64,000 nt of DNA from Gemmatimonadaceae bacterium (GTDB lineage: Bacteria > Gemmatimonadota > Gemmatimonadetes > Gemmatimonadales > Gemmatimonadaceae), in the NCBI GenBank assembly GCA_020851035.1, contig JADZDM010000021.1:1-64000 (forward strand). Reading direction: 5' to 3'. Below the pieces are notes generated by a model that saw only the letters and a list, made by a program, of their open reading frames with translations, did not search any database and was not told where the DNA came from. Positions 39,988-56,000 of the stretch are shown here, piece after piece; position 1 is the first letter of the stretch; the number at the start of each line of letters is the position of its first letter. The position numbers were made by a program, and so were the translations under genes.

Positions 39988-41754
39988 TCAGCGCGGGCTC
40001 ACTTGTGACACGAGCCGCATGACGGGGTGGAACTTGCCCATCAGCAGCCGCTCGTCGAAGAAGTTCCAGGTGGTGGCCCCGTCATTGGACTGCGGTTCCA
40101 GGAGCTGGGCCGCGACGAGCACCTGCCGCTGGGCCGCAGGCACCCACCGGAAGTCAGGGGATGGCAACATCCGGTTGCGGATCCAGCGGCCCTGCACGCG
40201 CACCTCGCGGTGTCCCTGGAACGCCCGCCCGACCTGCTGCACCGAGTCGAGCTGGAAGCGTTCCACGTCCATGCTGCGGATGCCGCTGACCCGAGGCAGC
40301 ACCCTCACGCCGTGTCGCGCGAGGAGGGACAACACGGCGGTGTCAGCCGCCTCGACGAGCCAGCCGCCGGCGGGCACGCCCGTCGCATGCGTGACCTCGA
40401 AGCGGTCGTGCACGGCCATCCACTGCGGCACGATGCGGCCGCTGCGGCGGATCCCGACGGGCACCCCGGGCTCGGCGGCGAGGCTGTCGCGGTCGGGGAG
40501 CAGTTCCTCCACCAGCACGCTGTCACGGAAGGGGGTGGTGGTGAGGGCGGTCTCGAGCACCACACCGCGCGGCGGGCGTCCGGCGGCGAGCAGGCGGCGC
40601 GCGGCAGAGACGCGGGCGAGGATCGACGGATCGGCCCCGACGGTGCCGAGCAGCTCGCGCACGAAGGCGTAGGTGCTGGCGACGCGCACCGCGAAGGGGT
40701 CGTGTGAGTAGGCCTCGCTGAGGATCGAGATGCCGCCGGTGAGGCCGAAGTAGTTGGAGCCGAATCGCGGGCGCGAATCGTAGGTGAACCAACCTTCCTT
40801 CCGCGTGTCGAGCGAGACCTCGCGTGCGAAGGAGCTGCTGAAGTTGCCGTACGGATACGTCTTCACGCCGCGCGGCCAGAGGCGGCGGCGGACGCCGGCG
40901 AGGAGCGTGTCGCTGGTGAACCGCGCCAGCGGTGCGCCCGGATGGAGCGAGGGCGAGAAAGTGAGGTTGTAGCCGTGGTAGCTGCCGTTGGTGGTGTGCA
41001 GGTCGACGAAGACGTCGATGCCGCCGCCGGAGAGCATCGGCAGGAGCGCCCGTGTCTCGGGGGCCTCGGACTTGATGTAGTCGCGGTTCAGGTCCAGCCC
41101 GTCGCCGTTGGCGCGCTCACCGATGATGGCGGGGCCGAGCTGTGCGCCGCGGTTCCGCGCCTGCGGGCCGAGGGCCTCGTTGCCATCGGCGTTGTACATC
41201 GGCACCACCACCAGCGTGACACTGTCGAGCAGGTTCGCACGCGGGTCGGTGACGACGGTGCGCAGCAGTGCGAGCACGGCCTCCTTCCCCTCCACCTCGC
41301 CGGCGTGGATGTTCGCCTGCAGCAGCACGACCGGCCGGCGTCGCGAGGCGTACATGAGCTCATCGCAGCTGAGCATCGTGCGGGCGAGGCGCGCGCAGGC
41401 CGTAACGGCCATCAGCGGCCGCCCGCGCGGCGAGGCGCCCAGCCGCGTGATGCGCATCAGCCGGTTCGGCGCGGCCTTCGCGCGCACGGTGTCGAGGAAG
41501 GCCATCGCCTCCTCGTACGGCGTGGTCTCGCAGAAGCCGGTGCGCTCGGCGCGCGTGGCCGGTGACGGCATCGGCGAGGGCATCGCCGGCGTGCAGCGCC
41601 AGGCGGGGGCGCGGCGCGGGGCGGTGCGCACGGCCTCGCCCGCGATCCGCTGGCGCTCCGCGAGGTCGGTGCGCGCCGGCGACGGCGGGGTGGCGCAGGC
41701 CGGCAATGACAGCGCGCAGGTGATGCCGAGGGTCGCGGCGCAGACGGGGCGCAT
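39988..41754 (-). CDS. Secreted M14-family zinc carboxypeptidase
   Basis: The 588-residue product has a signal peptide with a possible lipobox (TCALSLPACAT). The M14 zinc site is visible as NIHAGEVEGKE (HxxE) and, further on, the third ligand in VFVDLHTTNGSYHG. LDLNRDYIK is the substrate-binding Arg region and SILSEAYSHDPF the catalytic Glu. It should trim C-terminal residues from peptides in the periplasm or outside. The C-terminal ~200 residues are a separate beta-rich domain. ATG 41754 overlaps the stop of the S9 peptidase gene by one base (TGATG); the last gene of the peptidase operon. Confidence 0.88.
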   Translation of the reverse strand: MRPVCAATLGITCALSLPACATPPSPARTDLAERQRIAGEAVRTAPRRAPAWRCTPAMPSPMPSPATRAERTGFCETTPYEEAMAFLDTVRAKAAPNRLMRITRLGASPRGRPLMAVTACARLARTMLSCDELMYASRRRPVVLLQANIHAGEVEGKEAVLALLRTVVTDPRANLLDSVTLVVVPMYNADGNEALGPQARNRGAQLGPAIIGERANGDGLDLNRDYIKSEAPETRALLPMLSGGGIDVFVDLHTTNGSYHGYNLTFSPSLHPGAPLARFTSDTLLAGVRRRLWPRGVKTYPYGNFSSSFAREVSLDTRKEGWFTYDSRPRFGSNYFGLTGGISILSEAYSHDPFAVRVASTYAFVRELLGTVGADPSILARVSAARRLLAAGRPPRGVVLETALTTTPFRDSVLVEELLPDRDSLAAEPGVPVGIRRSGRIVPQWMAVHDRFEVTHATGVPAGGWLVEAADTAVLSLLARHGVRVLPRVSGIRSMDVERFQLDSVQQVGRAFQGHREVRVQGRWIRNRMLPSPDFRWVPAAQRQVLVAAQLLEPQSNDGATTWNFFDERLLMGKFHPVMRLVSQVSPR

Positions 41755-44024
41755 CAGAGATTCTCGCGAATGAAGCGCGTGAGCGACTCGTAGAGGTGCA
41801 CCGAGGTGTTCCCGCCACTGAGGGAGTGGGTGCGATTGGGGTAGAACAGCTGCTGCATCGGGCGGTTGGCGCGGACCATGCGTTCGATGAGCTGCACGGA
41901 GTTCTGCGGATGGACGTTGTCGTCGCCGGTGCCGTGCACCAGCAGGAACCGTGCGCGCATGCCGGCCACCGCGAGCTGCGGCGACGTCTCCTGGTAGCCG
42001 GCGGCGTTCTGCTGCGGCGTCCACATGAACCGCTCGGTGTAGATCGTGTCGTAGAGGCGCCAGTCGGTCACGGGCGCGACGGCGATGACCGCCCGGAAGA
42101 GCTCCCCGCCCTTCGCGGCCACCATCGACGCGAGGTAGCCGCCGAAGCTCCAGCCCCAGAAGCCGATCCGCCCGGCGTCCACCCATGGCTGTCGGCCCAG
42201 CCAGCGGGCGGCGTCGAGCTGGTCCTGCGTCTCCAGCAGGCCCAGTCGCAGCTGTGTGGCCTTCCGGAAGTCGCGGCCGCGGAAGGCAGCCCCGCGGTTG
42301 TCCACCACGACCACGACGTACCCCTGCTGCGCGAGCGAGACGTGCCACAGGTACCGGCTGCCGCCCCACTGGTCGATCACCTGCGGCGCGGCGGGGCCAC
42401 CGTAGGCGTGCATCAGCACGGGATACCGGCGCGTGCTGTCGAACCCCGGCGGCAGGATGCGATAGGCGTCGAGGGCGGTGCCGTCGGGCATCGGCACGCG
42501 GAAGAGCTGCGGCGGCTGGATGTCCTGCGCCACCAGCCGCGCGCGCACGGCCGCGTTGTCGGTGAGCTCGCGCACCTTCACCATGCGCGGCAGCGAGTGG
42601 AGCGACACCACCGGGGGCACGCCGAGGCGGGACCAGGCCTCGAAGACGAAGGTCGCGGTGGGACTCACGAGCAGCGCGTGCGCCCCGTCGCCCTGCGTGA
42701 GCCGCGTGGCGCGGCGGCCGTCGAGCGACACGCGCAGCAGCTGCTGCTGCGTCGGGGTGGGGGCCGCCACCTGCACGTACGCCGCGCCCGCCTTCAGGTC
42801 CACCGCGAGCAGGTCGAGCACGTCCATGCTGTCCGGCGTGATGCGGCCCACCAGGGTCCCGTCACGCCGGTAGAGGTAATACTGCTGCCATCCGCTGCGG
42901 TCGCTGCGCAGCAGGAAGCGGCGGTGGTCGGCGAGCCAGGTGACGGCCTCGCCCTCGCTGTTCACGTAGGCCGTGTCGCGCTCGGTGACGACGGTGCGCC
43001 CGGCGCCGGAGGTGGCGCTGAGCAGCAGCAGGTCGAGCTGCACCTGGTGGCGCGGCACCCGTTGCACCGAGATCGAGTCGGCGTCGACCCATTCCATGCG
43101 CGTGATGTACTGGCCGGTGTCGGGCCCCACGTCGAGCGGATGCCGGTTGCTGCCATCGGCGCCGATGACGTGGATGGTCACGCGGGAGTTGGCGTCACCC
43201 GCCTTCGGGTAGCGGAGCACCGACACCCGCGGGTACGGCGCCATGTCATCCACGATCGGATAGGCCGGCACGGCCGACTGGTCGAAGCGCCAGAAGGCGA
43301 GGCGCCGGCTGTCGGGGCTCCACCGGAACGCGTCGCGCAGCCCGAGCTCCTCCTCGTACACCCAGTCGGTGGTGCCGTTGATGATGTCGTCGCTGCCATC
43401 GGTGGTGAGGCGCGTCTCGGTGCCGGTCTGCAGGTCCTTCACCCAGAGGTCGTTCGCCCGGCCGAAGGCCACCTTGCGGCCGTCGGGGGAGAACTTCGCG
43501 AACATCTGCAGGTTCGGGTCGGCGGCACCGCTGCCGAGACCGGGGGCCAGGAAGCCCGGTCCCTGTGCCTGGCGCAGCGGCGCAGCGGCGAGGGTGGCGA
43601 CGAGTGGCGTGACGGTCTTCGTCGCGAAGTCCGCGACGTGGTACAGACCGCGCGTGTTGGTGCGCCACACGCGCACGGAGGAATGGAAGACCAGCGCCTT
43701 CGTCTCGTCGGCCGAGAGGGTCACGTCCTCGACGTCGATCGGGGTGCCGCTCGCATCCCGCAGCGTCCCGGCGGGCATCAGGACCGTCTCGGCCCCGCTG
43801 ACGGCATCCACCCGGACCAGCATGGCGCCGCCGATGTCCGTCTTCACGCTGAGGTAGCTGCGCCCGTCCTTCATCCACTGCACGAACGGGAGGCCCTGCG
43901 CCGCGAACTCGCGACTGCGGAAGATCCGCTCGACAGTGAGCGGCGGCACCGGGGCCTGGGCGGGAAGTGCGCCGGCCAGCGGCGTGGCGAGTGCGGCGAC
44001 GAGCGCGAGACGGCGACGGATCAT
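41754..44024 (-). CDS. Secreted prolyl-oligopeptidase family serine peptidase (S9, DPP IV-like)
   Basis: The 756-residue protein has a signal peptide (RLALVAALATPLAGALPAQ), an N-terminal eight-bladed propeller (for example FSPDGRKVAFGRANDLWVKD, WSPDSRRLAFWRFDQS) and a C-terminal alpha/beta-hydrolase domain. The triad is Ser in GFWGWSFGGYLAS, Asp in GTGDDNVHPQNS and His in NRTHSLSGG. The DEEL-like EEELGLRDAFRW segment matches the Glu motif of DPP IV that reads the peptide N-terminus. It would release N-terminal dipeptides from peptides. It is flanked on both sides by overlapping genes of the same operon. Confidence 0.93.
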   Translation of the reverse strand: MIRRRLALVAALATPLAGALPAQAPVPPLTVERIFRSREFAAQGLPFVQWMKDGRSYLSVKTDIGGAMLVRVDAVSGAETVLMPAGTLRDASGTPIDVEDVTLSADETKALVFHSSVRVWRTNTRGLYHVADFATKTVTPLVATLAAAPLRQAQGPGFLAPGLGSGAADPNLQMFAKFSPDGRKVAFGRANDLWVKDLQTGTETRLTTDGSDDIINGTTDWVYEEELGLRDAFRWSPDSRRLAFWRFDQSAVPAYPIVDDMAPYPRVSVLRYPKAGDANSRVTIHVIGADGSNRHPLDVGPDTGQYITRMEWVDADSISVQRVPRHQVQLDLLLLSATSGAGRTVVTERDTAYVNSEGEAVTWLADHRRFLLRSDRSGWQQYYLYRRDGTLVGRITPDSMDVLDLLAVDLKAGAAYVQVAAPTPTQQQLLRVSLDGRRATRLTQGDGAHALLVSPTATFVFEAWSRLGVPPVVSLHSLPRMVKVRELTDNAAVRARLVAQDIQPPQLFRVPMPDGTALDAYRILPPGFDSTRRYPVLMHAYGGPAAPQVIDQWGGSRYLWHVSLAQQGYVVVVVDNRGAAFRGRDFRKATQLRLGLLETQDQLDAARWLGRQPWVDAGRIGFWGWSFGGYLASMVAAKGGELFRAVIAVAPVTDWRLYDTIYTERFMWTPQQNAAGYQETSPQLAVAGMRARFLLVHGTGDDNVHPQNSVQLIERMVRANRPMQQLFYPNRTHSLSGGNTSVHLYESLTRFIRENL

Positions 44025-44443
44025 GGCTGCGGCAGCGGTGGCATGCGGCGTCCCTCGCCCTCGAGCCGGAAGACGGCAACCGGTGAGCGCCAGGCGGTGG
44101 AGTCGCGGTCGCGGTACGCGGTCACGTACCAGCGGTAGTTCTGGGAGAGCGAGTACCGGAAGCCCTCGGGAATGGTGACCTGCGTGTCGCGGGTGACCGA
44201 GGTGAAGACCGGCACCTCGACGGAATCGGAGACGACGACCTCATAGCGCGACACACCGGGTGAGGCGTGCCAGGTGATGAGGCGCTCGTTCTCCTTCACG
44301 TACCCGATGGGTGCGACGAGCGCCACCGCGATGGGGTCATTGCCGCGCCGCACGGGCGGGGTCTCGCCCTCGGCAGCGGGACGGCAGGCACCCAGCAGGC
44401 CAAGCAGGACCGGAAGGGAGCGCGACAGGCGGAATCGGGGCAT
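44021..44443 (-). CDS. Lipoprotein with fibronectin/Ig-like sensor domain shared with the anti-sigma factor
   Basis: The 140-residue product has a lipobox (LLGLLGACRP) and one Ig/Fn3-like domain (residues ~50-135). That domain, SRYEVVVSDSVEVPVFTSVT then QNYRWYVTAYRDRDSTAW, aligns with the periplasmic domain of the anti-sigma factor at 48825-49553 (DRYTVEVLDASDAPVFTGDT, GTYRWFVRARG). The shared pattern is YxVxVxD...PVFT..T...(V/I)xIP......YRWxV. ATG 44443 overlaps the preceding gene by one base, and its stop overlaps the S9 gene by 4 nt. It probably binds the same kind of ligand or surface as the anti-sigma factor. Confidence 0.72.
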   Translation of the reverse strand: MPRFRLSRSLPVLLGLLGACRPAAEGETPPVRRGNDPIAVALVAPIGYVKENERLITWHASPGVSRYEVVVSDSVEVPVFTSVTRDTQVTIPEGFRYSLSQNYRWYVTAYRDRDSTAWRSPVAVFRLEGEGRRMPPLPQP

Positions 44444-45621
44444 CAGCGCGGGCGTCGTGATCGTGGGGTGGACCGTGCCGGCCGCGGGCGGGCGGTCCGG
44501 TTCGGGCGTCGTGGGGTGTCGGCGAGGCGGCGTGGGGGGTCGGCAGCGATCCGGGGGACGCGGCCGAGGAGGATCTGGCCGGCGATGGCGTCCACGGGGC
44601 GCGCGGTGTTGCTGACGACCGTCGCCATGCGCTGGCGGGCGGGATCGATGGCGAGGTAGAGCGCGAAGCCCGGCACATCCAATGCATCGTGCCAGTAGAT
44701 GTCGCGGCCGTCGAGGCGCAGCACGCGCCACCCGAGGGCCACCGGCAGGGTTGGATCCGCACCGAGACTCCGGGTTCGCATCATGAGCGCAAAGGTACTG
44801 GCCAGCGGTCCGTCGACCGTGTCGCTGGCGGCGACGGCAAGCTGGGCGAGCCGGCTCACCGAGGCATGCCACCGCCCTTCCGGGAGGGGACCGAGCGGCA
44901 GGGGCGTGCCGTCCCTGGCGTGACCGGAGGCATCCTCGCCCGCGCGCGAACCGCCGCTGCTGAACCGGATGCCGGCGAGCCCCAGCGGCTTGAGGATCCT
45001 GGCCTCGACGGCGGCGTCGAGCGGCATCCGGAGCTGCGTGGCGAGCGCGGCGCCGAGGAGGTCGATGCCGAGCTGCGAGTAGGCGTAGCGGGAGCCGATG
45101 TCACCGGCGAGCGTGACGCCGTTGACGGCATTGGCGAGCCGCTGCCGTACGGTGCCGCCGGTGGTGGGCGGCTGGTTGGGCAACCCGGCCCGATGCAGGG
45201 CGAGATCGCCGAGGGTGATGCTGCGGCCGTTCCTGATGGGGAGGCGGATGGGCTCCGGCAGGAGGGGCTGCGCCGGCTGGTCGAACGCGAGCTCACCGGC
45301 GGCCACCAGGTTGGCGAACAGGGCTGCCGTGAGGAGGGCACCGGCCTCACCGAGGGGCACCCGGATTCCGGGAGACATGAGCGTGCCGCCGGGGCCGCTG
45401 ACACCCGCGGTGGCGAACCGGATGGAGTCGCCGTCACGCCAGGCGGCGGCGAGGCCGCGGAAGGTCCGATCCGCGGTGCGTTCGGCGAAGGCCGCGCGGA
45501 CGGCAGCGGGCTCGGGCGCGCGGGATCCCTGCGCGGCCACGGACGCCGCCGGCAGGCAGAGCAGCCACGCCGTCGCTGTCCGGCCGATCCTGTGCAGGTG
45601 CCGGGGGGTCATGCCGTTCAT
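44443..45621 (-). CDS. Beta-lactamase/PBP-fold protein with all three catalytic motifs degraded
   Basis: The 392-residue secreted protein (signal peptide ATAWLLCLPAASVAAQ) follows the class C beta-lactamase-family order, but the catalytic positions are lost. SxxK is GEAG (91-94, in RVPLGEAGALLTAALFANLV), YxN is YSQ (181-183) and (K/H)TG is HDA (311-313). Flanking helices (LVAAGELAFDQPAQPLLPE, LTLGDL-like ITLGDLALHRAGLPN) are well kept, so the fold is under selection. It may bind peptides without cleaving them. The tail is Arg/Pro-rich. ATG 45621 or 45612 starts the first gene of the peptidase operon, which diverges from the CHAT gene with 129 bp between. Confidence 0.8.
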   Translation of the reverse strand: MNGMTPRHLHRIGRTATAWLLCLPAASVAAQGSRAPEPAAVRAAFAERTADRTFRGLAAAWRDGDSIRFATAGVSGPGGTLMSPGIRVPLGEAGALLTAALFANLVAAGELAFDQPAQPLLPEPIRLPIRNGRSITLGDLALHRAGLPNQPPTTGGTVRQRLANAVNGVTLAGDIGSRYAYSQLGIDLLGAALATQLRMPLDAAVEARILKPLGLAGIRFSSGGSRAGEDASGHARDGTPLPLGPLPEGRWHASVSRLAQLAVAASDTVDGPLASTFALMMRTRSLGADPTLPVALGWRVLRLDGRDIYWHDALDVPGFALYLAIDPARQRMATVVSNTARPVDAIAGQILLGRVPRIAADPPRRLADTPRRPNRTARPRPARSTPRSRRPR

Positions 45622-45735
45622 GCCGAGGCGGTCCGGTCTGGGAGGAGGTGCATGAGATCGACGGTGCATCCTAGCGCGGCCGGCGTGGACGCGCAGCCCG
45701 GGACGGCGCGCGCCTCCGGAAGCGGGAGGCCGGCG

Positions 45736-45741
45736 TACATT
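45736..45741 (+). promoter_or_regulatory. Candidate -10 element for the CHAT protease gene
   Basis: TACATT (45736-45741) is followed by nine bases and ATG 45751, leaving almost no leader. Confidence 0.4.
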
Positions 45742-45750
45742 CTTCGTCCA

Positions 45751-48546
45751 ATGCAACGACTCCGAGCGCTGACCCTGGCCGCGATCGGCCTGGCCCTGCC
45801 ACTGCAGGCCCAGCCGGGCAGTCCATACGACACACTGGCGCCGCGCGTGCTCTGGCGTCTTGCGGGGCGCGCGAAGGCGCAGGACAGCATGCCGTCCCGG
45901 ATGGCGGAGTGGCGGACGTGGGCGGCCGCGCGTCCCGAGGCCGCGGCGCCGCGGTTGGGGCTGGCGATGCTGTCGCGCTTCGACTCGCGGTACGCCGATG
46001 CGATGGCCTGGCTGGACAGCGCCGCCCGAGTGGCCCGTGAACCACTCTGGCGTGCGGCGATCGCGCGGGAGCGGGTGGGAGCGATGCTGGTGCGTGGCGA
46101 CTTCCGCGACGTGGAGCGCCTGATGGCGGTCGCGCTCGCCGACAGCGCGGGCATGCCGCGCGAGGAGTGGGCCGAGACGCGATTCGTCCAGCTGGCGCTG
46201 GAGCGCCGGGTGCACCAGCGCACCACGCTGGCCGGGATCGAGGCGGTGGCGGCGCTGGCGACGTCGCAGGATTCGGTGCTGCAGGCGCGCCTCTCCTGCC
46301 TGCGGGTGGTGGCCGATCCCGAGCGCCGGATGGCGCATGCGTCGGCGAGCTTCGCGCTCGCGGATGCGGTGGGGTTGCCGGCGCTGCGTGCGAATTGCGA
46401 GCTGGCGCTGGGCTCGCAGCTGATGGGGCAGGGCCTGGTGAACCAGGCGGTGACCTGGCTGGAGCGTGCACAGGCCACGGCGCGGGCGGCGCATGACGAC
46501 CCGACGCTCGCAGCGGCGCTGCAGTGGCATGGGTATGCGCTGCGCACGGTGGGGATGATCCGGTCTTCGCGTGCGCAACTGACGGCCGCGATCCGTGTCG
46601 CGCAGCGGATCGACGACCGGAACATCGAGGCGTGGGCGCTGCTGAGCGTGGCCGGGGTGGCGCGCCAGACGGGGGACGCCGCCGCCGCGACGGCCGCGTT
46701 GCGTCGCGCACTGCGGCTGTTCGAGGCCAGCGGCGACCGGGTCGGATACGAGGAGGGGCTGCTGGAGCAGGCGCAGGCGATGCTGCTGGTGGGTGACCTG
46801 CAGAACGCCGAGCGGGTGGCGCAGCACAGTGCGCTGGTGAGCGACTCGCTGGGCTTGCCATCGATGCGGATCCGGTCGACCTACGCGCTGGCCGACATCG
46901 CGGTGCGCACCAACCGGACCGACGTGGCCCGCGACCTGCTCGACCGCATCGAGCCGGTGGTGCGGGAGCGGGGTGCGGCCTGGATGACGCAGCTCACGGA
47001 GTATCGCGGGCTGCTGGCGCTGCGCAACGGCCGCAGCGACGAGGCGATCCGCCTGCTGGCGGGGGTGCGCGACACCTATTCCCGCGCGTCGCAGCCGTTG
47101 TTCCGTCACAACGTGGATGGCGCACTGGCGCTGGCGTCGCTGCTGGCCGGCGACTCGGTGAGCGCGGCGCGCACGCTGGTGGAGGCGAACCGCGAGCTGG
47201 ACGACATGCGGGACACGCTGGCCGAGGCTGGGCTGCGGAAGGTGCTGATGCCGCCGGACATGTGGGGGGGCACCAGCGGCAACGTGGACCGGGTGCTGGC
47301 CGCGTTCGTGCAATCGCCACGCTGGCTGCCGACGGTGTTCGCGGTGGCGGAGCGTTCGCGCGCGCGTGCGCTGCTCAACGGCACGCTGGGCTCGGAGACG
47401 ACGCGGGACACGGCAGTGCTGCGTGAGGCGCGCCGGCGCGTGCGGGCGAGCGCCACGGTGCTGGCCGACGTGCAACGGGCGCTCAAGCCGCACACGGCGC
47501 TGCTGGTGTACGCCGGTGGCTCCGACATCGCGCGCACCTCGCTGATGGTGATCACGTCGACGCAGGCGCGGGGGGTGACGCTGGCGCCGCTCGATTCACT
47601 GGATCGCGACATCGTGCGATGGCTCGCCCTGCTCGAGAGTGGTGAGACGGGCGCGGGCGCCGGCCGGCGCGTGGCGACGGCGGTGCTGGGGGACGCGCTG
47701 CGCAGCCTGCCGGCGGGGATCCGCCACCTGGTGGTGGTGCCGCAGGGGGCGCTGTACCGGGTGCCGTTCCAGGCGCTGCCGATGACGGCGCGCGGGGTGC
47801 TGGGCGACCGGATGGTGGTGACGATCGCCCCCTCGGTGTCGCTGGCGCTGGCGTACGCGGCGGCGCCGCGTGCGGTGGATGCGCGAGTGCTCGCGCTGGG
47901 CGCCGGCGACACCGAGGTGGCGAGCGAGACGCCGCAGTCGATGGAGCTGAGCGTGGAACGCAGTGAGCGCGGCAACCCGCTGGCGCCGCTGCTGGCCGCC
48001 GCCGACGAGGCGCGCGCCGCGGCGGCGTGGGGGCGCGGCTCGCTGGCGCTGACGGGCGGTGACGCGTCGGAGTCGGCGCTCAAGCGTGCGGCGCGCAGCT
48101 CCTACACGGTGCTGCACACCGCCGCGCACGCGCTCACGAGCGACCAGGCACTGGGTGCGAACTGGCTGATCCTGCGCCCGGACTCGCTGGAGGACGGCTA
48201 CGTCTCGGGCGGGGAGCTGGCGGAGCTGAGCTCGGGGGCGTCGATGGTGGTGCTGTCGGGGTGCCGGACGACGGGCGACTTCGGCTCGCGCGGCGACGCG
48301 ATCGACGGGCTGGTCGCACCGCTGCTCGCCCGCGGTGTGCGCACGGTGGTGGCGAGCCACTGGGCGGTGAGCGATCGCTGGACGCGGGTGCTGATGGAGC
48401 GGTTCTACCGGAACCTGGCCGAGGGGCGCCCGGCGGCGGATGCGATGAACGCGGCCCAGACGTCCCTCCGTCGCGCGGGCGTCCCGGCGCGCTTCTGGGC
48501 GGCGTTCAGCGTGATCGGTGACGGGGCGCTCACGTTCACGCGCTGA
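45751..48546 (+). CDS. Secreted TPR-CHAT domain protein (caspase-like cysteine protease)
   Basis: The 931-residue product has a signal peptide (LTLAAIGLALPLQAQ), about 500 residues of helical TPR repeats (for example LALGSQLMGQGLVNQAVTWL, GDAAAATAALRRALRLFEAS, VGDLQNAERVAQHS), and a C-terminal CHAT domain from ~residue 600. The predicted dyad is His793 (VLHTAAHALTSDQ) and Cys838 (MVVLSGCRTTGDFGSRGD), followed by GLVAPLLARGVRTVVASHWAV and RFYRNLAEGRPAADAMNAAQ. CHAT proteases are separase/caspase relatives, often activated by partner binding to the TPRs. Export is notable, because well-studied CHAT systems are cytoplasmic. The long upstream open frame (from 44689) is antisense to the divergent gene. 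Confidence 0.9.
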   Translation: MQRLRALTLAAIGLALPLQAQPGSPYDTLAPRVLWRLAGRAKAQDSMPSRMAEWRTWAAARPEAAAPRLGLAMLSRFDSRYADAMAWLDSAARVAREPLWRAAIARERVGAMLVRGDFRDVERLMAVALADSAGMPREEWAETRFVQLALERRVHQRTTLAGIEAVAALATSQDSVLQARLSCLRVVADPERRMAHASASFALADAVGLPALRANCELALGSQLMGQGLVNQAVTWLERAQATARAAHDDPTLAAALQWHGYALRTVGMIRSSRAQLTAAIRVAQRIDDRNIEAWALLSVAGVARQTGDAAAATAALRRALRLFEASGDRVGYEEGLLEQAQAMLLVGDLQNAERVAQHSALVSDSLGLPSMRIRSTYALADIAVRTNRTDVARDLLDRIEPVVRERGAAWMTQLTEYRGLLALRNGRSDEAIRLLAGVRDTYSRASQPLFRHNVDGALALASLLAGDSVSAARTLVEANRELDDMRDTLAEAGLRKVLMPPDMWGGTSGNVDRVLAAFVQSPRWLPTVFAVAERSRARALLNGTLGSETTRDTAVLREARRRVRASATVLADVQRALKPHTALLVYAGGSDIARTSLMVITSTQARGVTLAPLDSLDRDIVRWLALLESGETGAGAGRRVATAVLGDALRSLPAGIRHLVVVPQGALYRVPFQALPMTARGVLGDRMVVTIAPSVSLALAYAAAPRAVDARVLALGAGDTEVASETPQSMELSVERSERGNPLAPLLAAADEARAAAAWGRGSLALTGGDASESALKRAARSSYTVLHTAAHALTSDQALGANWLILRPDSLEDGYVSGGELAELSSGASMVVLSGCRTTGDFGSRGDAIDGLVAPLLARGVRTVVASHWAVSDRWTRVLMERFYRNLAEGRPAADAMNAAQTSLRRAGVPARFWAAFSVIGDGALTFTR

Positions 48547-48576
48547 CGGCCTGCCGGGACAACGGCAACTGCTTTA

Positions 48577-48792
48577 ACGCAAAGACGCAAAGCGGCCTGC
48601 GGCCGCCGCAAAGGAACAGCAACGGCAGGTCTGCGCAGCACGCTGACTTCCATGTGCGGGCGAGCATCGCGAGGGTTGAGGGAACTGCAACAACCACGGC
48701 TGTTCCTCTCAACTCTTCGGACTGTCGTGCGTGCGAAGCCTGCGACGCGCATCGATCCCTTTGCGTCCTCTCACTCCCCTTTGCGTCTCTGC
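48577..48792. repeat. Intergenic region with inverted CGCAAAG repeats
   Basis: ACGCAAAG occurs twice in tandem at 48577-48592 and CGCAAAGG again at 48607-48614. In opposite orientation CCCTTTGCGT lies at 48757-48766 and CTTTGCGTCTCTGC at 48779-48792. GCAAAGACGCAAAG (48579-48592) pairs with 48779-48792 at 13 of 14 positions. Inside, GGTTGAGGGAAC and GTTCCTCTCAACT form a second near-palindrome. The region is non-coding and lies tail-to-tail between the CHAT gene and the anti-sigma gene, so it could be an RNA or a two-way terminator. Confidence 0.65.
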
Positions 48793-48824
48793 GGCTGAGC
48801 GGTTCGCAGTTGACAGTCTGAGCG

Positions 48825-49553
48825 TCAGCGGACGGTGAAGGACTCGACGCGGGAGCGGATCTCGGAGCGGTCGGTGCCGCGGGCGCGGACGAACCAGCGA
48901 TAGGTGCCGCGCTTGAGGGTGGCGGCGGGGATCACGAGGCGGGTGGTGTGCGTGTCGCCGGTGAACACCGGGGCGTCGGAGGCATCGAGGACCTCGACGG
49001 TGTAGCGGTCGTCGGTGCGCAGCATCTTCCACGACAGCGTGATGGGCGCGGTGGCCGGCATCGGCGGCACGGCGAGCAGTTCCACGGCCGAGCCGGCGGA
49101 GCGGATCGCCTGGGCCGCCGTCTCCTGCTCCGGCAGGGTGTACACGTACCAGCTCGTGCCGGCGACGAGGATGAGCGAGGCGGCGAGGAGGATGGGCTTG
49201 AGTCCCGCCATCGCCCCCCGACCGCGAGGGGCCGCGGCGGCGAAGGCGCGCGATGCCGCGGGCTCGGCCTCCCGGCGGGTGAAATAGGCGTGGGGGGTGC
49301 CGGCCGTGCTGGCGCGTGCGGCCACGACATGGGCCAGCTCGCGGGCACCGGCCGGCGTGGCCAGGAGCTGCTCGATGACGGCCAGGCGTGCCTCGTCGGC
49401 AGCCTCGGGATCGGCGAGCACATCCAGCGACTCCGGCAGCCCCATCGAGGACGAGGCGCGCTCCGCGTCACGGGCCCAGCCGAACGCGTCGCGCAGCGCC
49501 GCGGGCATGGGCCCCGGATCACGGGGAAGCTGCAGGTCCTCAGGATTCGTCAT
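48825..49553 (-). CDS. Membrane-spanning anti-sigma-factor-like protein with periplasmic Fn3/Ig-like domain
   Basis: The 242-residue protein has a cytoplasmic N-terminal ~120 residues (helical, LDVLADPEAADEARLAVIEQ; no HxxxCxxC zinc motif), one membrane helix (LKPILLAASLILVAGTSWYVY) and a periplasmic domain. That domain, DRYTVEVLDASDAPVFTGDT and GTYRWFVRARG, matches the lipoprotein at 44021-44443. ATG 49553 overlaps the ECF sigma gene stop by 4 nt, the standard arrangement for a sigma/anti-sigma pair. The N-terminus would hold the sigma factor until the periplasmic domain senses a signal. The anti-sigma role is inferred from context and topology. Confidence 0.75.
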   Translation of the reverse strand: MTNPEDLQLPRDPGPMPAALRDAFGWARDAERASSSMGLPESLDVLADPEAADEARLAVIEQLLATPAGARELAHVVAARASTAGTPHAYFTRREAEPAASRAFAAAAPRGRGAMAGLKPILLAASLILVAGTSWYVYTLPEQETAAQAIRSAGSAVELLAVPPMPATAPITLSWKMLRTDDRYTVEVLDASDAPVFTGDTHTTRLVIPAATLKRGTYRWFVRARGTDRSEIRSRVESFTVR

Positions 49554-50104
49554 GCGTCACTCCCCCATTCGATCCCACGTGCCACCAGGTACTCGCGCAA
49601 GTCGGACAGCCCACGGTAGAGCAGGTTACGGGTCTTGGCTTCGGTCCAGCCCAGCAGCACCTCGATTTCGTCGCGACGATACCCGTCGAGGTGCAGCTTC
49701 ACCACTGCGCGCCGGGCCAGGCCAAGGGACTCCACACCCGACCGGACCACGGCCCCGAGCGACGCCGCCTCGACGTCGGCGTCGGGACCCGGCCCGGGAG
49801 CGGGCAGCGGGAGATCCTCGACCGGGTCGTGCGTCGCGGCGCGGCGGCGACGGCGCAGGAGATCCAGGACTGCCGTCGTGACCACGCGTTGGAGATAGGA
49901 CGCCGAAAGGCGCGAGATGTTCTCAGTCGACCCGCAGACCCGCCAGAGCCGGATCCGGACCTCCTGCTCGGCCTCCCCGATGTCACTTGGTGGCAGCCGG
50001 TACCGTGCGCCGGTGGCACGGATCGAGCCGGCGAACCGCCGGACGATGTCGTCCAGCAGCGCCGACAGCTCGCGATCATCGGGCGGGGCAGGCGGGGCGA
50101 GCAC
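49550..50104 (-). CDS. ECF-type RNA polymerase sigma factor
   Basis: The 184-residue protein has sigma-2 (LDDIVRRFAGSIRATGARYR, EAEQEVRIRLWRVCGS and RLSASYLQRVVTTAVLDLLR) and sigma-4 (LARRAVVKLHLDGYRRDEIE, VLLGWTEAKTRNLLYRGLSD) regions joined by a Pro/Gly-rich linker. It is short, with no sigma-3. GTG 50104 was chosen because homology starts at once. It is followed with a 4-nt overlap by the anti-sigma gene and lies 32 bp after fadJ on the same strand, so read-through from the fad genes is possible. Its regulon may include the CHAT gene beyond. Confidence 0.88.
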   Translation of the reverse strand: MLAPPAPPDDRELSALLDDIVRRFAGSIRATGARYRLPPSDIGEAEQEVRIRLWRVCGSTENISRLSASYLQRVVTTAVLDLLRRRRRAATHDPVEDLPLPAPGPGPDADVEAASLGAVVRSGVESLGLARRAVVKLHLDGYRRDEIEVLLGWTEAKTRNLLYRGLSDLREYLVARGIEWGSDA

Positions 50105-50136
50105 GGCCTCGCCCCCGTGGACTTCGGGCTGGTCAG

Positions 50137-52302
50137 TCAGACTGGCTTCCCCGTCTCGGGATAGAAGCGATCACCGCGCTCAGCCATGGCGCGCAGGCGT
50201 GCGGCCGCCTGGTACCGTCCGGGGAACAATCGCTCCAGACCATCGAGGGTGGCAACCACCCGGGCGGCCCCGAGGCGGTCGACGTAGCGGAACGGCCCGC
50301 CGCGGAAGGGCGGGAAGCCGATCCCGAAGACCGCGCCGATGTCGCCGTCGCGTGCCGAGCGCAGGATGCCATCCTCGAGGCAGAGCACGGCCTCGTTGAG
50401 CATCGCGTAGACGCAGCGCTGCACGATGTCCTCGGCGGGCACCACGGTGCGCTTCTGGCCGGTCGGCAGCAGCTCGTACACCGAGCCGTCCACGCCACCC
50501 TTCTTGCCGGCATCATCGTACGCATAGAACCCGCGACGGCCCTTGCGACCCAGCCGGCCCGCCTTGATCACGCGCTGGATCGACTCGTTCGGTGCCATCC
50601 GGCCACCAAAGGCCTCGGCCACGATCGCGCCGGCCTTTGTCGCCACGTCGAGCCCGACCTCGTCCACCAGCGTCACCGGGCCGACGGGGAAGCCGAACTT
50701 CACCAGCGCGTCATCGATCGCGTCGATCGCCACCCCCTCGTCCAGCAGCAGGCCGGCCGCATTCACGTACGGCGCGAGCACGCGGTTGGCGTAGAACCCC
50801 GGGCCGTCGCGCACCACGATCACCGTCTTGCCGAGCTTCCGGCCGTACGCCACCGCGCTCACCACCACCTGCGGATCGTTGCCGTCGTGGGTGATGACCT
50901 CCAGCAGCGGCATCTTGTGCACGGGCGAGAAAAAGTGCATGCCGAGCACGCGCTCGGGGCGCGCGCTGGCCACCGCGATGCGGCTGATCGGGATGGTGCT
51001 GGTGTTGCTGGCGATGATGGTGCGCGCCGGCACCACGTGCTCGAGCTCGCGCAGCACCTGCTGCTTCACCTGCAGGTCCTCGAACACGGCCTCGATCACG
51101 AGGTCCACGTTGCCGAAGCCGGTGTAGTCGGTGGTGCCGCTGACGGCGAGCACGAGGTCGTCGAACTGGGTGCGCGTGATCTGCTTCTTCACCAGCTTCT
51201 CGCGGAGCACCTCGCGCACGGCGGCCAGGCCCTTCGCCACGCGGGTGGTGTCGGCATCCTTCATCCGCACGATGGTGCCCGCCGGGCTGGCGACGCTGGC
51301 GATGCCTGCCCCCATGAAGCCGGCACCGAGGATGCCCAGCCTGCCGATGGGCAGCGCCGCCGGCAGCGGCGTCACGTCCACGCCCATGTCGCGCTTGAGC
51401 GCGGTGGTGGCGAAGAAGAGGAACACCAGCTCCTGCGACTCCGGCGTCATGGCGAGCTCGCCGAAGAGCCGCGCCTCGGTCTGGTAGCCGTCACCGTCGC
51501 TGCTGTAGCCCGCGGCGACGGCATCGAGGGCCGCCAGCGGCGCGGGATAGAGCCCCTTCGTCTTCTCCAGCACGCCTTCCTTCGCCTTGCGGAAGACGAT
51601 CGCGCGGCCGATGGGGTTCTCGTCGAGCAGCATCTCGCCGGCGCCCTTCGGCTTCGCCTCGCGCCGGCGGGTGCCGGCCGCGAGCTCGGTGGCGCGCTGC
51701 AGTGCCACGCGCCGCAGGATGCTGGGATGCACCATCTCATCGACGAGGCCGAGCTGCAGCGCCTTCTTCGCGCGTACGGTCTTGCCGGTGAGGATCATGT
51801 CGAGCGCCGCCTGCAGCCCGATGAGCGCCGGGAGGCGCTGGGTGCCTCCGGCGCCGGGGATCAGGCCCAGTTGCACCTCGGGCAGCGAGAGCGAGGTCTT
51901 CGGGCTGTCGGAGGCGATGCGCCAGTGGCAGGCCAGCGCGAGCTCGGTGCCGCCGCCGAGGCAGCTGCCATGGATGGCGCAGACGACGGGCTTCCCGTCG
52001 GCGAGGCGCTGGAAGTCGGCATGACCGGCGCGGCAGGCCGCCTCGGCATCGGCCGCGGTGCGGAATCCGAGGAACGCCTCGATGTCGGCGCCGGCGATGA
52101 AGTTGTCGCGCTTGCCGCTGAGCACGACGGCCGCGCGGATGGCAGGGTCCCGTTGCACCCGCTCGAAGAGCCCGCGCAGCTCGTCCTGGGCGGCGGCAGT
52201 GAAGGTGTTCACCGGCACCGACGGGTCGTCGAAGGTGACCACGGCGATGCCCTGCTCCACCTCGAAGGTGAAGGCGGACGGCGTGTTGGCGGGTGCGGTC
52301 AT
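50137..52302 (-). CDS. fadJ: Fatty-acid oxidation multifunctional protein: enoyl-CoA hydratase/3-hydroxyacyl-CoA dehydrogenase
   Basis: The 721-residue protein has an N-terminal crotonase domain (GADIEAFLGF oxyanion region, GGGTELALACHWRIA, PEVQLGLIPGAGGTQRLP with the catalytic Glu residues) and a C-terminal NAD-dependent dehydrogenase (GILGAGFMGAGIASVAS, then SNTSTIPIS, GMHFFSPVHKMPLLEVI with the catalytic His, and GFYANRVLAPY). It hydrates enoyl-CoA and oxidises the 3-hydroxy product in the cytoplasm. The thiolase gene lies 16 bp upstream, giving a complete beta-oxidation cycle core. Length is typical of FadJ/FadB. Confidence 0.94.
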   Translation of the reverse strand: MTAPANTPSAFTFEVEQGIAVVTFDDPSVPVNTFTAAAQDELRGLFERVQRDPAIRAAVVLSGKRDNFIAGADIEAFLGFRTAADAEAACRAGHADFQRLADGKPVVCAIHGSCLGGGTELALACHWRIASDSPKTSLSLPEVQLGLIPGAGGTQRLPALIGLQAALDMILTGKTVRAKKALQLGLVDEMVHPSILRRVALQRATELAAGTRRREAKPKGAGEMLLDENPIGRAIVFRKAKEGVLEKTKGLYPAPLAALDAVAAGYSSDGDGYQTEARLFGELAMTPESQELVFLFFATTALKRDMGVDVTPLPAALPIGRLGILGAGFMGAGIASVASPAGTIVRMKDADTTRVAKGLAAVREVLREKLVKKQITRTQFDDLVLAVSGTTDYTGFGNVDLVIEAVFEDLQVKQQVLRELEHVVPARTIIASNTSTIPISRIAVASARPERVLGMHFFSPVHKMPLLEVITHDGNDPQVVVSAVAYGRKLGKTVIVVRDGPGFYANRVLAPYVNAAGLLLDEGVAIDAIDDALVKFGFPVGPVTLVDEVGLDVATKAGAIVAEAFGGRMAPNESIQRVIKAGRLGRKGRRGFYAYDDAGKKGGVDGSVYELLPTGQKRTVVPAEDIVQRCVYAMLNEAVLCLEDGILRSARDGDIGAVFGIGFPPFRGGPFRYVDRLGAARVVATLDGLERLFPGRYQAAARLRAMAERGDRFYPETGKPV

Positions 52303-52318
52303 GGCGGTGAGGAGGACA

Positions 52319-53614
52319 TCAGGCGCGTTCGATGATCATCGCGAAACCCAGGCCGCCCGCGGCGCAGACGGTGAGCATGCCGAACTGCCCGCCACGCCGC
52401 GCGAGTTCGTTGGCGAGCGTGGTGGTCACGCGGGCACCGGTGGCCCCGAACGGGTGCCCGATGGCAAGCGAGCCGCCCATCACGTTCAGCTTGGCCCGGT
52501 CGACCTCCCCGAGCGGCTGTGACAGGCCGGCGCGGGCCGCCCACTCCGGGCTCTCGAAGCCGCGCAGGTTGCTGAGCACCTGGGCGGCGAAGGCCTCGTG
52601 CATTTCGATCAGGTCGAGGTCGCGCAGCGTGAGGCCGGCGCGCTGCAGGGCGCGCGGCGCAGCGATGACGGGCGCCTGGAGGAGCTGCGCACCCGGATCG
52701 ACGGCGGCGCTGGCGTACGAGCGGATGTAGGCCAGCGGCGTGTAGCCGAGCGCGGCGGCCTTCTCCTCGCTCATCAGCAGCACGGCACCGGCGCCGTCGG
52801 TGAGCGGCGAGGCGTTGCCGGCGGTGACGGTGCCGTACCGCTTGTCGAAGACCGGCTTGAGCGCGGCGAGCTGCTCGAGGGTGCCATCCTCGCGCACGCC
52901 GTTGTCGGTGGTGGCGATCTTCTCGTAGCGCGGCGGCACGTAGACCGGGAACATCTCCTGCGCCAGCCGCCCGTCACGCAGGCCGGCGGCGGCCAGCCGG
53001 TGCGAGCGGAGCGCGAACTCGTCCTGCTCCTGGCGCGAGATGTCGTTGAGCTTGGCCATCTTCTCGGCGCTCTGCCCCATCGTCTCGCCGGTGGACGGCT
53101 CGGCGATGGCGGGGGCCACGGGCACGAGGTCCTTCGGGCGGACGCGCGAGAAGGCGCTGAGCTTCTGGCTGAGGTTCTTCGCCTTGTTGGCGGACATCAG
53201 CACGTCGGAGAAGCCGGCCGAGTGCAGGATCGGCACGTTCGACAGCGACTCCGCGCCGCCGGCGATGACGCAGTCCATGTGGCCGAGGGCGATCTGGTCG
53301 GCGGCATCGGCGATGGCCTGGTTGGCGCTGGCGCAGGCGCGGCTCACCGACCAGGCGTCCACCGCCTTGGGCAGGAGCGGGATCAGCGAGACTTCGCGGG
53401 CGATGTTCGGCGCCTGCACGTTCTGGACGACCGTCCCGAAGACGACCGCGTCCACGTCGCTGCCGTTGAGGTTCGTCCGCTGCAGGAGCTCGGCGACACA
53501 GAGTCGGCCCAGCTCGATCGCGGAGAGCGACTTGTACAGGGTGCCCGCCTTGGCGAACGGGGTACGAACCCCGGTGACGATGGCCACGCGGCGCAGCGAT
53601 CCGATCGATGTCAT
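52319..53614 (-). CDS. fadI: Acetyl-CoA C-acyltransferase (3-ketoacyl-CoA thiolase), FadI type
   Basis: The 431-residue protein has the thiolase nucleophile Cys in SVSRACASANQAIADAAD, the central His in IEMHEAFAAQVLSNLRGF, NVMGGSLAIGHPFGATGAR and the C-terminal Cys motif VCAAGGLGFAMI. It cleaves 3-ketoacyl-CoA to acetyl-CoA. Length and the SKLSAFSRVRPKD-type insertion match the FadI group. Two Met codons compete: ATG 53620 and ATG 53614. I chose 53614 because TAAGTT directly upstream is exactly 6 nt from it, the spacing seen at other near-leaderless starts here. fadJ follows. Confidence 0.93.
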   Translation of the reverse strand: MTSIGSLRRVAIVTGVRTPFAKAGTLYKSLSAIELGRLCVAELLQRTNLNGSDVDAVVFGTVVQNVQAPNIAREVSLIPLLPKAVDAWSVSRACASANQAIADAADQIALGHMDCVIAGGAESLSNVPILHSAGFSDVLMSANKAKNLSQKLSAFSRVRPKDLVPVAPAIAEPSTGETMGQSAEKMAKLNDISRQEQDEFALRSHRLAAAGLRDGRLAQEMFPVYVPPRYEKIATTDNGVREDGTLEQLAALKPVFDKRYGTVTAGNASPLTDGAGAVLLMSEEKAAALGYTPLAYIRSYASAAVDPGAQLLQAPVIAAPRALQRAGLTLRDLDLIEMHEAFAAQVLSNLRGFESPEWAARAGLSQPLGEVDRAKLNVMGGSLAIGHPFGATGARVTTTLANELARRGGQFGMLTVCAAGGLGFAMIIERA

Positions 53615-53620
53615 TCCCAT

Positions 53621-53626
53621 AACTTA
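53621..53626 (-). promoter_or_regulatory. Candidate -10 element of near-leaderless fadIJ promoter
   Basis: TAAGTT on the minus strand (53626-53621) abuts ATG 53620 and is 6 nt upstream of ATG 53614. Transcription would begin at or next to the second ATG. Confidence 0.5.
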
Positions 53627-53697
53627 GCCGTCGGTGACTGGCCACTGCCACGCGCATCGCTCCCGGGCGCCGCGCCACCTTCCCGAACCGCATCGCC

Positions 53698-55368
53698 GTG
53701 TCACAGCCGTCTGCGCATCCGCCGGGCTCCCGCCTGCTGCCTGGCCTTGGCCAGCGGGGGGAGGCGTGGGCGCGCCTGCAGGGCGAGCCCTTCGACCTCC
53801 TGGTGGTGGGTGGCGGGATCACCGGTGCCGGTGTGGCGCGCGATGCGGCGCTGCGTGGCCTGCGCACGGCGCTGGTGGAGGCGGACGACTGGGCGAGCGG
53901 CACGTCGTCCCGTTCGTCGAGACTGGTGCACGGCGGCGTGCGGTACCTGGAGCATGGGCACCTGCACCTGGTGTTCGAGGCGAGCCGCGAGCGGCGGACG
54001 CTGCTGGCGATCGCGCCGCACCTCGTGCGCCCGCTGCGGTTCGTGTGGCCGGTGTATCGCGGCGCTCGCATCCCGCGCTGGAAGCTGCGCGCCGGGCTGC
54101 TGGCGTACGACGCGCTCTCGCTGTTCCGGAACGTGGGCCCGCACCATGGCGCGTCCCGGCGCGAGATCCTGCGGCGCGAGCGCGGACTGCGGCCGGAGGG
54201 GCTGGTGGGTGGCGCGGAGTACTGGGATGCCGCCACCGACGACGTGCGGCTGACGCTCGCGAACGTGCTGGCGGCTGCGGAGGCGGGCGCCGTGGCGCTC
54301 AACCACGCCCGGGTGGGCGGGTTCCTGCACGACGGTGGTGGCCGCCTGCGTGGCGCGTGCATCACGGACGGGGTGACGGGCGCATCGACCGACGTCGTGG
54401 CGCGGGTGGTCGTGAATGCCACCGGCCCCTGGAGCGACGTCACGCGCCGGCTGGACGATGGCGTCGCGCACGAGTCGGTGCTGGGGAGCAAGGGAGTGCA
54501 CATCGCCGTTGCCCGCGGCCTGGTTCCCGTCACCGATGCGCTCACGCTGCTGCACCCGTCGGATGGCCGTGTGTTCTTCATCCTGCCGTCGCCGGTGCAC
54601 ACGATCATCGGCACCACGGAGACGGCCGCCGAGTCGGGTCCGCACGAGGTGCGCGCCAGCCGGCGTGACGTGTCGTACCTGCTGGATGCGGCGAACCACT
54701 TCTTCCCGCAGGCGGCGCTCTCACCGGCCGACGTGATCAGCGCGTGGGCCGGCATCCGGCCGCTGGTGGCGCACGCCGACACGAGCGCGAACGACGCCTC
54801 GCGTGAGCACGAGATCGCCACGTCGGCCTCGGGGCTGGTCTCGATCACCGGCGGCAAGCTGACGACCTACCGGGCCATGGCCTCGGAGATCGTCGACGTG
54901 GTGGAGCGCGCGCTGGGTCGCGCCGCACCGACGCCGTCGATGACGGGCGAGGCGGCGCTCCCGGGAGCGGGTGACGAAGGACACGAGGCCGAGGTGCGAG
55001 CCGCGCGCGGGGTCATTCCGGAGTCCGAGACGGCGGACCAGCTCGTGCGCGCGTACGGCACTCGGTGGCGGCTGGTGTGGGGCCTGGTGGAGCGGGAGCC
55101 GCTGCTGGGCGACCGGCTGGACCCCGACCTGCCCTACATCCCGGCTGAGGTCCTGTGGGCCGCCGTGACGGAGGGGGCGTGGACGGTGGCCGACGTGCTG
55201 GTGCGACGGATGCCGATCGCATACGAGCGGCGCGATGCGGGCCGCGCGCTGGCGCCACAGGTGGCGGCGCTGCTGGGCCGCGTGCACGGGTGGGATGCGG
55301 CGACGGTGGATGCCGCGAGCGCGGCGTACGATGCAGAGGCGGCGCGGCTCTTCGCGATCGACGACTGA
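53698..55368 (+). CDS. glpD: Aerobic glycerol-3-phosphate dehydrogenase
   Basis: The 556-residue flavoprotein oxidises glycerol-3-phosphate to DHAP at the inner membrane and feeds electrons to quinone. The FAD site DLLVVGGGITGAGVARDAAL is followed by the GlpD-specific ASGTSSRSSRLVHGGVRYLE, later NATGPWSD, GSKGVHIAV, TIIGTTET and SITGGKLTTYRAMA. The C-terminal cap domain is complete. GTG 53698 starts 40 residues before the dinucleotide fold. It diverges from fadI. No glycerol kinase or facilitator gene is adjacent, so it may serve phospholipid-derived glycerol-3-phosphate together with the fad genes. Confidence 0.95.
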   Translation: MSQPSAHPPGSRLLPGLGQRGEAWARLQGEPFDLLVVGGGITGAGVARDAALRGLRTALVEADDWASGTSSRSSRLVHGGVRYLEHGHLHLVFEASRERRTLLAIAPHLVRPLRFVWPVYRGARIPRWKLRAGLLAYDALSLFRNVGPHHGASRREILRRERGLRPEGLVGGAEYWDAATDDVRLTLANVLAAAEAGAVALNHARVGGFLHDGGGRLRGACITDGVTGASTDVVARVVVNATGPWSDVTRRLDDGVAHESVLGSKGVHIAVARGLVPVTDALTLLHPSDGRVFFILPSPVHTIIGTTETAAESGPHEVRASRRDVSYLLDAANHFFPQAALSPADVISAWAGIRPLVAHADTSANDASREHEIATSASGLVSITGGKLTTYRAMASEIVDVVERALGRAAPTPSMTGEAALPGAGDEGHEAEVRAARGVIPESETADQLVRAYGTRWRLVWGLVEREPLLGDRLDPDLPYIPAEVLWAAVTEGAWTVADVLVRRMPIAYERRDAGRALAPQVAALLGRVHGWDAATVDAASAAYDAEAARLFAIDD

Positions 55369-55383
55369 GCCGCGCAGCCGCGA

Positions 55384-55863
55384 TCAGTCCATCAGCTCGA
55401 GCTGATGGAAGGTGAGCAGCTCGACGATCTTCAGCCGGCGGGTGCGGGCCGGGAGCTTGAGCAGCGCCATGTCGCCGATGGCCTTGTTCTGCAGTGCGAG
55501 CCCGATCGGCGACGACATGCTCACCTGCCCGTCGATCAGTTCCCCGCCGTCGCCGAACACCAGTTCGTACACCTCGCGCTCCTCGGAGACGAGATCCTCC
55601 ACCGTGACGCGGCTGCCGAGTCCCACGCGATCGGTGGGGATCTGCGTGATGTCGATGTCGGAGAGCTTGGAGAGGCGCTGCACGAGCTGCCCGAGGCGCG
55701 CCTGCACGAAGCGCTGGCGCTCGAGGGCGGCCTTATACTCACTGTTCTCGCGCAGGTCGCCGTGATCCACCGCCTTCTTGATTTCCTGCGGGAGCGTGAC
55801 GGTCAGCTCATGCCGCAGCTTGGCGACTTCGCTCGAGAGCTTTTCCTTGAGGGCTTCGATCAT
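55384..55863 (-). CDS. greA: Transcript cleavage factor GreA-like
   Basis: The 159-residue protein has an N-terminal coiled coil (MIEALKEKLSSEVAKLRHEL) with the acidic tip DHGDLRENSEYKAALERQRF and a C-terminal FKBP-like domain (VGLGSRVTVEDLVSEEREVY, SPIGLALQNKAIGDMALLKL). It enters the RNA polymerase secondary channel to rescue backtracked complexes. The tip keeps the acidic residues that position Mg2+. ATG 55863 starts the coiled coil. It is convergent with glpD; GACTGA (55363-55368) and TCAGTC (55384-55389) at the two stops form a small inverted repeat. Confidence 0.93.
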   Translation of the reverse strand: MIEALKEKLSSEVAKLRHELTVTLPQEIKKAVDHGDLRENSEYKAALERQRFVQARLGQLVQRLSKLSDIDITQIPTDRVGLGSRVTVEDLVSEEREVYELVFGDGGELIDGQVSMSSPIGLALQNKAIGDMALLKLPARTRRLKIVELLTFHQLELMD

Positions 55864-56000
55864 GGACCAACCGTTGCTGCACGGGGGAAACGACTTCGCC
55901 CGGCCATCGGGGCCGGGCGGAAACGGGAACCTACGGCGCGCGGATTCCGCGCACAATCAGCGCGCGGCCGGCGCCAGCCAGGGCCGGGCCAGGCCGGTCA

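Follow-up and report, generated by a model that had tools for sequence, protein, structure and literature searches.

A CHAT protein of predicted periplasmic location paired with a membrane anti-sigma factor: a candidate activator of an extracytoplasmic function sigma factor in Gemmatimonadota

What role might a CHAT protein bearing an export signal play beside the genes for a sigma factor and its membrane-bound restrainer? The question is raised by a stretch of 64,000 nucleotides (hereafter, the window) from a Gemmatimonadaceae bacterium (assembly GCA_020851035.1, contig JADZDM010000021.1, positions 1 to 64,000, forward strand), in which a gene for a tetratricopeptide repeat (TPR)-CHAT protein is convergent with an extracytoplasmic function (ECF) sigma/anti-sigma pair at 48825-50104, the two reading frames of which overlap, start over stop, at 49550-49553. 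To our knowledge, CHAT proteins, which resemble caspases and separase, are common in bacteria, and for most of them no targets have been described. A preliminary description of the window had placed a secreted CHAT protein between a peptidase operon and the ECF pair, and the open reading frames and their strands are as it had them. The data that we have generated support the view that the CHAT protein, the sigma factor, and the anti-sigma factor with its fibronectin type III-like (Fn3-like) domain constitute a linked system, and we infer that the best mechanism to account for it is one in which CHAT cuts the anti-sigma factor or displaces it.

The contig carries another trio at 146-150 kb, its genes likewise convergent, and convergent trios are also present in close relatives. 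A pattern scan of GTDB genomes with an alignment of the sigma factor yielded 38 loci with ECF relatives, mostly in Gemmatimonadota, together with Aminicenantes, other Acidobacteriota, one metagenome-assembled genome (MAG) of Planctomycetota, and one "Clostridiales" MAG. A CHAT gene lies alongside 28 of the 31 sigma loci whose anti-sigma factor has transmembrane and Fn3 parts, whereas none was found at the seven loci with usable flanks where the anti-sigma factor is a bare soluble domain or where none was seen; the loci are related, and the Fisher p value of 1e-5 for this comparison is therefore indicative only. Soluble ZAS-like proteins of 73 to 83 residues, corresponding to the N-terminal domain of the anti-sigma factor alone, adjoin sigma factors closely related to that of the window at L098 (1818-2069), L108 (7626-7847), L109 (7531-7779), and L113 (7894-8136), and no transmembrane segment, Fn3 domain, or CHAT gene was found at these four loci.

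In a census of the phylum, 395 Gemmatimonadota genomes were searched with an anti-sigma profile that had not been selected for CHAT. CHAT adjoins 68 of the 77 anti-sigma genes with enough flank, against a chance expectation of about 1%, a figure that follows from the density of CHAT genes in this genome, four per 5 Mb; beyond these 68, nothing more than the beginning of a TPR gene of similar kind is visible, by eye, at L168 and L189. Gene order was convergent at about 20 loci and that of a codirectional operon at about 45, with CHAT upstream at 1. Sigma factors from several different sigma-70 types occur at the operon-type loci, and the stable unit is thus the anti-sigma factor with CHAT and not one sigma lineage; the correlation between anti-sigma and CHAT distances (r, 0.90; partial r, 0.72 given sigma) agrees with a unit of this composition. 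The neighborhood anticipated in the preliminary description therefore recurs throughout the phylum and beyond, and a check for the opposite pattern, an unconserved neighborhood in which the Fn3 domain does not co-occur with CHAT, gave an outcome that favors the description. On these comparisons, a functional link between CHAT and the anti-sigma factor appears close to certain, and the phylum-wide adjacency of CHAT, sigma factor, and restrainer suggests a widespread envelope alarm in which action of the caspase-like CHAT protein on the restrainer would switch genes on.

Other Gemmatimonadota operons also join sigma factor, anti-sigma factor, and CHAT (L086, 3937-8972; L089, 3269-7739), the anti-sigma factor of L089 having periplasmic TPR-like repeats in place of Fn3. 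A secreted protein with a start resembling AQIxVxPTGVNVASQGATTVFLTFGGLSADQ is encoded near CHAT in two genomes (L111, 7527-9062; L081, 4170-5594), and in that of L111 the anti-sigma profile matches an Fn3-like domain at the C terminus. Another CHAT gene of the window's own genome (L077; G000:C5:480000-499000) stands beside SARP/BAD-type regulators and not beside a sigma factor.

The 931-residue product matches PF12770 with an E value of 9.9e-49 (166.8 bits, against a curated cut-off of 24), with TPR_12 (PF13424) N terminal to the CHAT domain. In the AlphaFold2 model (mean predicted local distance difference test score [pLDDT], 85.4; predicted template modeling score, 0.80), residues 526-931 align in structure with the catalytic region of separase from Chaetomium (5fc2), at a Z score of 25.0 and a root mean square deviation of 3.3 Å over 302 aligned residues. 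His793 and Cys838, named as the catalytic dyad in the preliminary description, both fall on the conserved dyad positions of the family, and the protein is a putative protease. It is probably exported to the periplasm, as predicted from its N terminus; similar N-terminal hydrophobic segments are seen in most complete CHAT relatives, some of which have a C-terminal membrane anchor as well.

The 184-residue sigma factor matches only regions 2 and r4_2 in Pfam, at E values of about 4e-4 and below the gathering score in both cases, and scores 40.3 bits with TIGR02937, the cut-off of which is 42.9. Its neighbor has the architecture of a membrane anti-sigma factor, with an N-terminal domain predicted to bind sigma, a single transmembrane segment, and a periplasmic domain; AlphaFold2 rendered these as a helical domain, a transmembrane helix, and a confident Fn3-like beta sandwich, the last reached through a linker (residues 140-153) with a pLDDT of <50. 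Within this apparently disordered linker, Arg151 (R151) is present in 35 of 35 anti-sigma factors and in 104 of 106 members of a wider set that holds a few Fn3 proteins other than anti-sigma factors. Among the exceptions, L190 and L218 either have no CHAT neighbor or are not anti-sigma factors, and L216 ends at a contig edge. The spacing of R151 is fixed, with 33 of 35 observed against a maximum of 27 of 35 when linker residues were shuffled, and the residue that follows is usually Gly, Asp, Ala, Ser, or Glu. Many proteases of clan CD, separase among them, cut after Arg (PMC4357240, PMC10317155), and R151 is therefore proposed as the cut site.

A natural fusion bears on the side of the membrane at which the two proteins would meet. 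At L179 (G027:C36, 826-4938, minus strand), one uninterrupted open reading frame of 1,371 residues encodes, in order, the cytoplasmic domain, transmembrane segment, linker, Fn3, TPR, and CHAT; the signal peptide of CHAT is gone, and the CHAT part begins where the signal peptide of its relatives would end, so that a genuine fusion seems a better account of L179 than a frameshift does. In such a protein, CHAT and Fn3 lie on the same side of the membrane.

We suggest that the membrane-spanning anti-sigma factor, the Fn3-like domain of which would project into the periplasm, holds the ECF sigma factor, and that the exported TPR-CHAT protein, probably through recognition of an envelope signal or a misplaced ligand by its TPR superhelix, targets the anti-sigma factor; the likeliest action would be a cut near R151, in the disordered stretch that joins the transmembrane helix to Fn3. 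Loss of Fn3 would then permit intramembrane proteolysis by an RseP-type protease, freeing sigma to act on its putative regulon; the genome encodes one strong M50 site-2 protease of this type. We put the chances of this sequence of events, in which CHAT action on the anti-sigma factor releases sigma, at about even.

Several observations weigh against this sequence of events. The catalytic His is replaced by Tyr, Phe, Ala, Ser, or Gln in 23 of 45 operon-type CHATs, Cys being kept (these lie among L165-L200; L187, for example, reads HLATYG), and the His-less proteins are paired with anti-sigma factors that retain the linker Arg, so that the Arg may be there for recognition or for structure and not for cutting. 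The Arg is kept, too, in several anti-sigma factors that have no CHAT nearby (L092, L101, L103). The Asp that binds the P1 Arg in separase, at Cys+41 (PMC10317155), is not conserved, the window having R879 and its relatives mostly Ala or Val; D875, the Asp of a WxVxD motif, was considered as a separase-like S1 residue supporting Arg specificity and dropped, as Cys+41 is residue 879, which is not acidic, and E753, invariant in 77 of 77 CHATs, is a candidate S1 residue only. In G001, sigma and anti-sigma genes are intact although CHAT has shrunk to a relic; at L083, in a genome of the same genus, a relic of about 95 bp (~8770-8865; 88% identical) is what is left of the CHAT gene, and the sigma and anti-sigma frames are still open. 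Finally, gapped-dyad enumeration over 24 and 26 regions upstream of CHAT and sigma genes gave no shared ECF promoter motif clearly above shuffles. In view of the loss of His, the unconserved Asp, the Arg of anti-sigma factors without CHAT, and the G001 relic, we regard cutting of the anti-sigma factor in the window's dyad-intact lineage as no more than likely, and the linker at R151 as a hypothesis for the site. The His-less proteins suggest pseudoproteases that have stayed with their anti-sigma partner, and with them goes a different explanation, that CHAT is a nonproteolytic periplasmic sensor or coregulator that would bind the Fn3 domain or the linker and shift the hold on sigma conformationally. 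The retention of the pair in those 23 cases, the Tyr at the His position of L179, and the existence of a fused anti-sigma/CHAT protein, DdvA, in Myxococcus all speak for it, and a conformational role of fused TPR-CHAT might apply in DdvA and L179; nevertheless, the dyad is intact in 43 of 43 convergent-type relatives, DdvA itself aligns with both His and Cys, and a conserved Arg in a disordered linker would be unusual for a purely structural partner, and we consider this explanation rather unlikely.

ECF sigma factors often control neighboring genes, and CHAT at convergent loci has its own promoter region, so that the protein could be an output of sigma, an exported protease effector within the regulon with no action on the anti-sigma factor. 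This we judge improbable: CHAT is missing where the anti-sigma factor has no periplasmic part, tracks the anti-sigma factor better than it does sigma, stays paired with it when the sigma family differs, and is fused to it in L179, and the promoter enumeration gave no shared motif. The preliminary description had gone further and drawn the peptidase operon into the system, with lipoprotein, CHAT, and anti-sigma factor sensing one envelope signal through a common Fn3 domain. The homology on which this was built is genuine, the lipoprotein and the Fn3-like domain of the anti-sigma factor being 37% identical over 71 residues by BLASTP and the anti-sigma profile matching the lipoprotein with an E value of 5.2e-18, and the beta-lactamase, lipoprotein, DPP-IV, and M14 genes, which overlap head to tail (the corrected lipoprotein start is the ATG at 44443, which overlaps the stop codon of the beta-lactamase gene), persist within the genus at L083 and L219. 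The operon was not found at the other conserved trios, however, the L083 and L219 homologues of the lipoprotein do not have the linker Arg, and lipoproteins resembling it are encoded away from CHAT genes (L218, L222). A single shared signal is thus very improbable, and the operon was rejected as a member of the system, being a genus-level neighbor only; the lipoprotein probably originated as the periplasmic half of an anti-sigma factor of this kind. In other genomes, members of this family, Fn3 lipoproteins or anti-sigma factors, adjoin glpD-like genes (L218, 4062-4460; L222, near 4000; L203), and the window has one such gene near its trio, at 53698-55368.

Table 1. Positions in the window of the trio, of features within its proteins, and of the neighboring lipoprotein gene
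Feature	Coordinates	Strand	Basis
Predicted exported TPR-CHAT protein, 931 residues	45751..48546	+	PF12770 (E 9.9e-49), PF13424, AlphaFold2, fold matches to separase, Csx29, and DdvA
Signal-peptide-like N terminus, residues 1-21	45751..45813	+	Hydrophobic segment MQRLRALTLAAIGLALPLQAQ
CHAT (separase-like) domain, residues 639-924	47665..48522	+	PF12770; superposition of residues 526-931 on separase 5fc2
Codon of predicted catalytic His793	48127..48129	+	Kept in 43/43 convergent-type relatives covering the position
Codon of predicted catalytic Cys838	48262..48264	+	Kept in every CHAT covering the position
Membrane anti-sigma factor, 242 residues (cytoplasmic domain, transmembrane helix, linker, periplasmic Fn3-like domain)	48825..49553	-	Profile, topology, AlphaFold2
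Predicted sigma-binding domain, residues 1-84	49302..49553	-	Relatives with CxxC, ZAS-like motif
Transmembrane helix, residues ~113-139	49137..49217	-	Sequence topology and AlphaFold2
Linker Arg151 codon, candidate cleavage or recognition site	49101..49103	-	Near-invariance, predicted disorder
Fn3-like periplasmic domain, residues ~155-242	48828..49091	-	pLDDT >90 over most; Foldseek matches to Fn3 domains
ECF sigma factor, 184 residues	49550..50104	-	Sigma-70 r2/r4_2 matches
Lipoprotein with homologous Fn3-like domain; genus-level neighbor	44021..44443	-	BLASTP, anti-sigma profile; homologues L083, L219

As a tentative generalization, to which we would give somewhat less than an even chance, such proteins may be dedicated periplasmic site-1 proteases of separase type, each with its own TPR sensor of envelope signals, that cut the conserved Arg-containing linker of a partner anti-sigma factor and so activate an ECF sigma factor; they would be widespread in Gemmatimonadota and would occur also in Acidobacteriota/Aminicenantes, with a side branch that has become pseudoenzymatic or fused. 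In the preliminary description, an exported CHAT protein tied to sigma regulation would be a novelty. We did not find the split, exported form described in the openly accessible literature that was searched, but DdvA already joins an anti-sigma factor to CHAT and the presence of CHAT genes near ECF54 sigma factors has been mentioned (PMC8999054). ECF54, with its CHAT and subtilase neighbors, is described without an anti-sigma factor (PMC8999054), whereas the window has a clear membrane anti-sigma factor. PADLOC gave no match for the three trio proteins.

In Craspase (Csx29, Csx30, and CASP-sigma), the TPR-CHAT protein Csx29 cuts a protein that inhibits an ECF sigma factor (PMC10028731), and the window CHAT shares the fold of Csx29 (Z, ~25). 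Craspase is, however, cytoplasmic and driven by CRISPR Cas7-11, with an unrelated inhibitor, and a cytoplasmic TPR-CHAT of this type was set aside for the window on account of the signal-peptide-like N termini here and in relatives; no CRISPR-like repeat array, as looked for in a type III-E system, was found within 40000-56000. Separase shares the catalytic fold but is eukaryotic, has other targets, and uses a P1-Arg Asp with no match here.

The nearest solved CHAT relative is DdvA, a transmembrane anti-sigma factor of Myxococcus xanthus that restrains the ECF factor DdvS (PMC4374960; DdvS-DdvA, PDB 8ROT and 8RW5): it gave the best match to a CHAT profile among PDB sequences (8ROT; E, 2.7e-11; Foldseek TM, 0.52-0.56), a search with the full CHAT alignment having been dominated by TPR proteins. 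DdvA is one fused polypeptide, whereas the window encodes an anti-sigma factor with an Fn3 domain and a TPR-CHAT protein with its own signal peptide as separate genes, and L179 is a fused intermediate. DdvA, for which no activating signal was known (PMC4374960), thereby joins a large family whose members may be split or fused, and the membrane anti-sigma factor, through its conserved pairing with CHAT, becomes a specific candidate substrate that offers a specific residue to mutate. The proposed logic is similar to that of DegS/RseP-RseA-RpoE, in which an anti-sigma factor with a single membrane pass is first cut at site 1 in the periplasm and then processed by a site-2 protease. The topology parallels that of DegS-RseA with different parts: the candidate site-1 protease, unlike DegS, would be a cysteine protease of separase type, specific to the anti-sigma factor and encoded alongside it.

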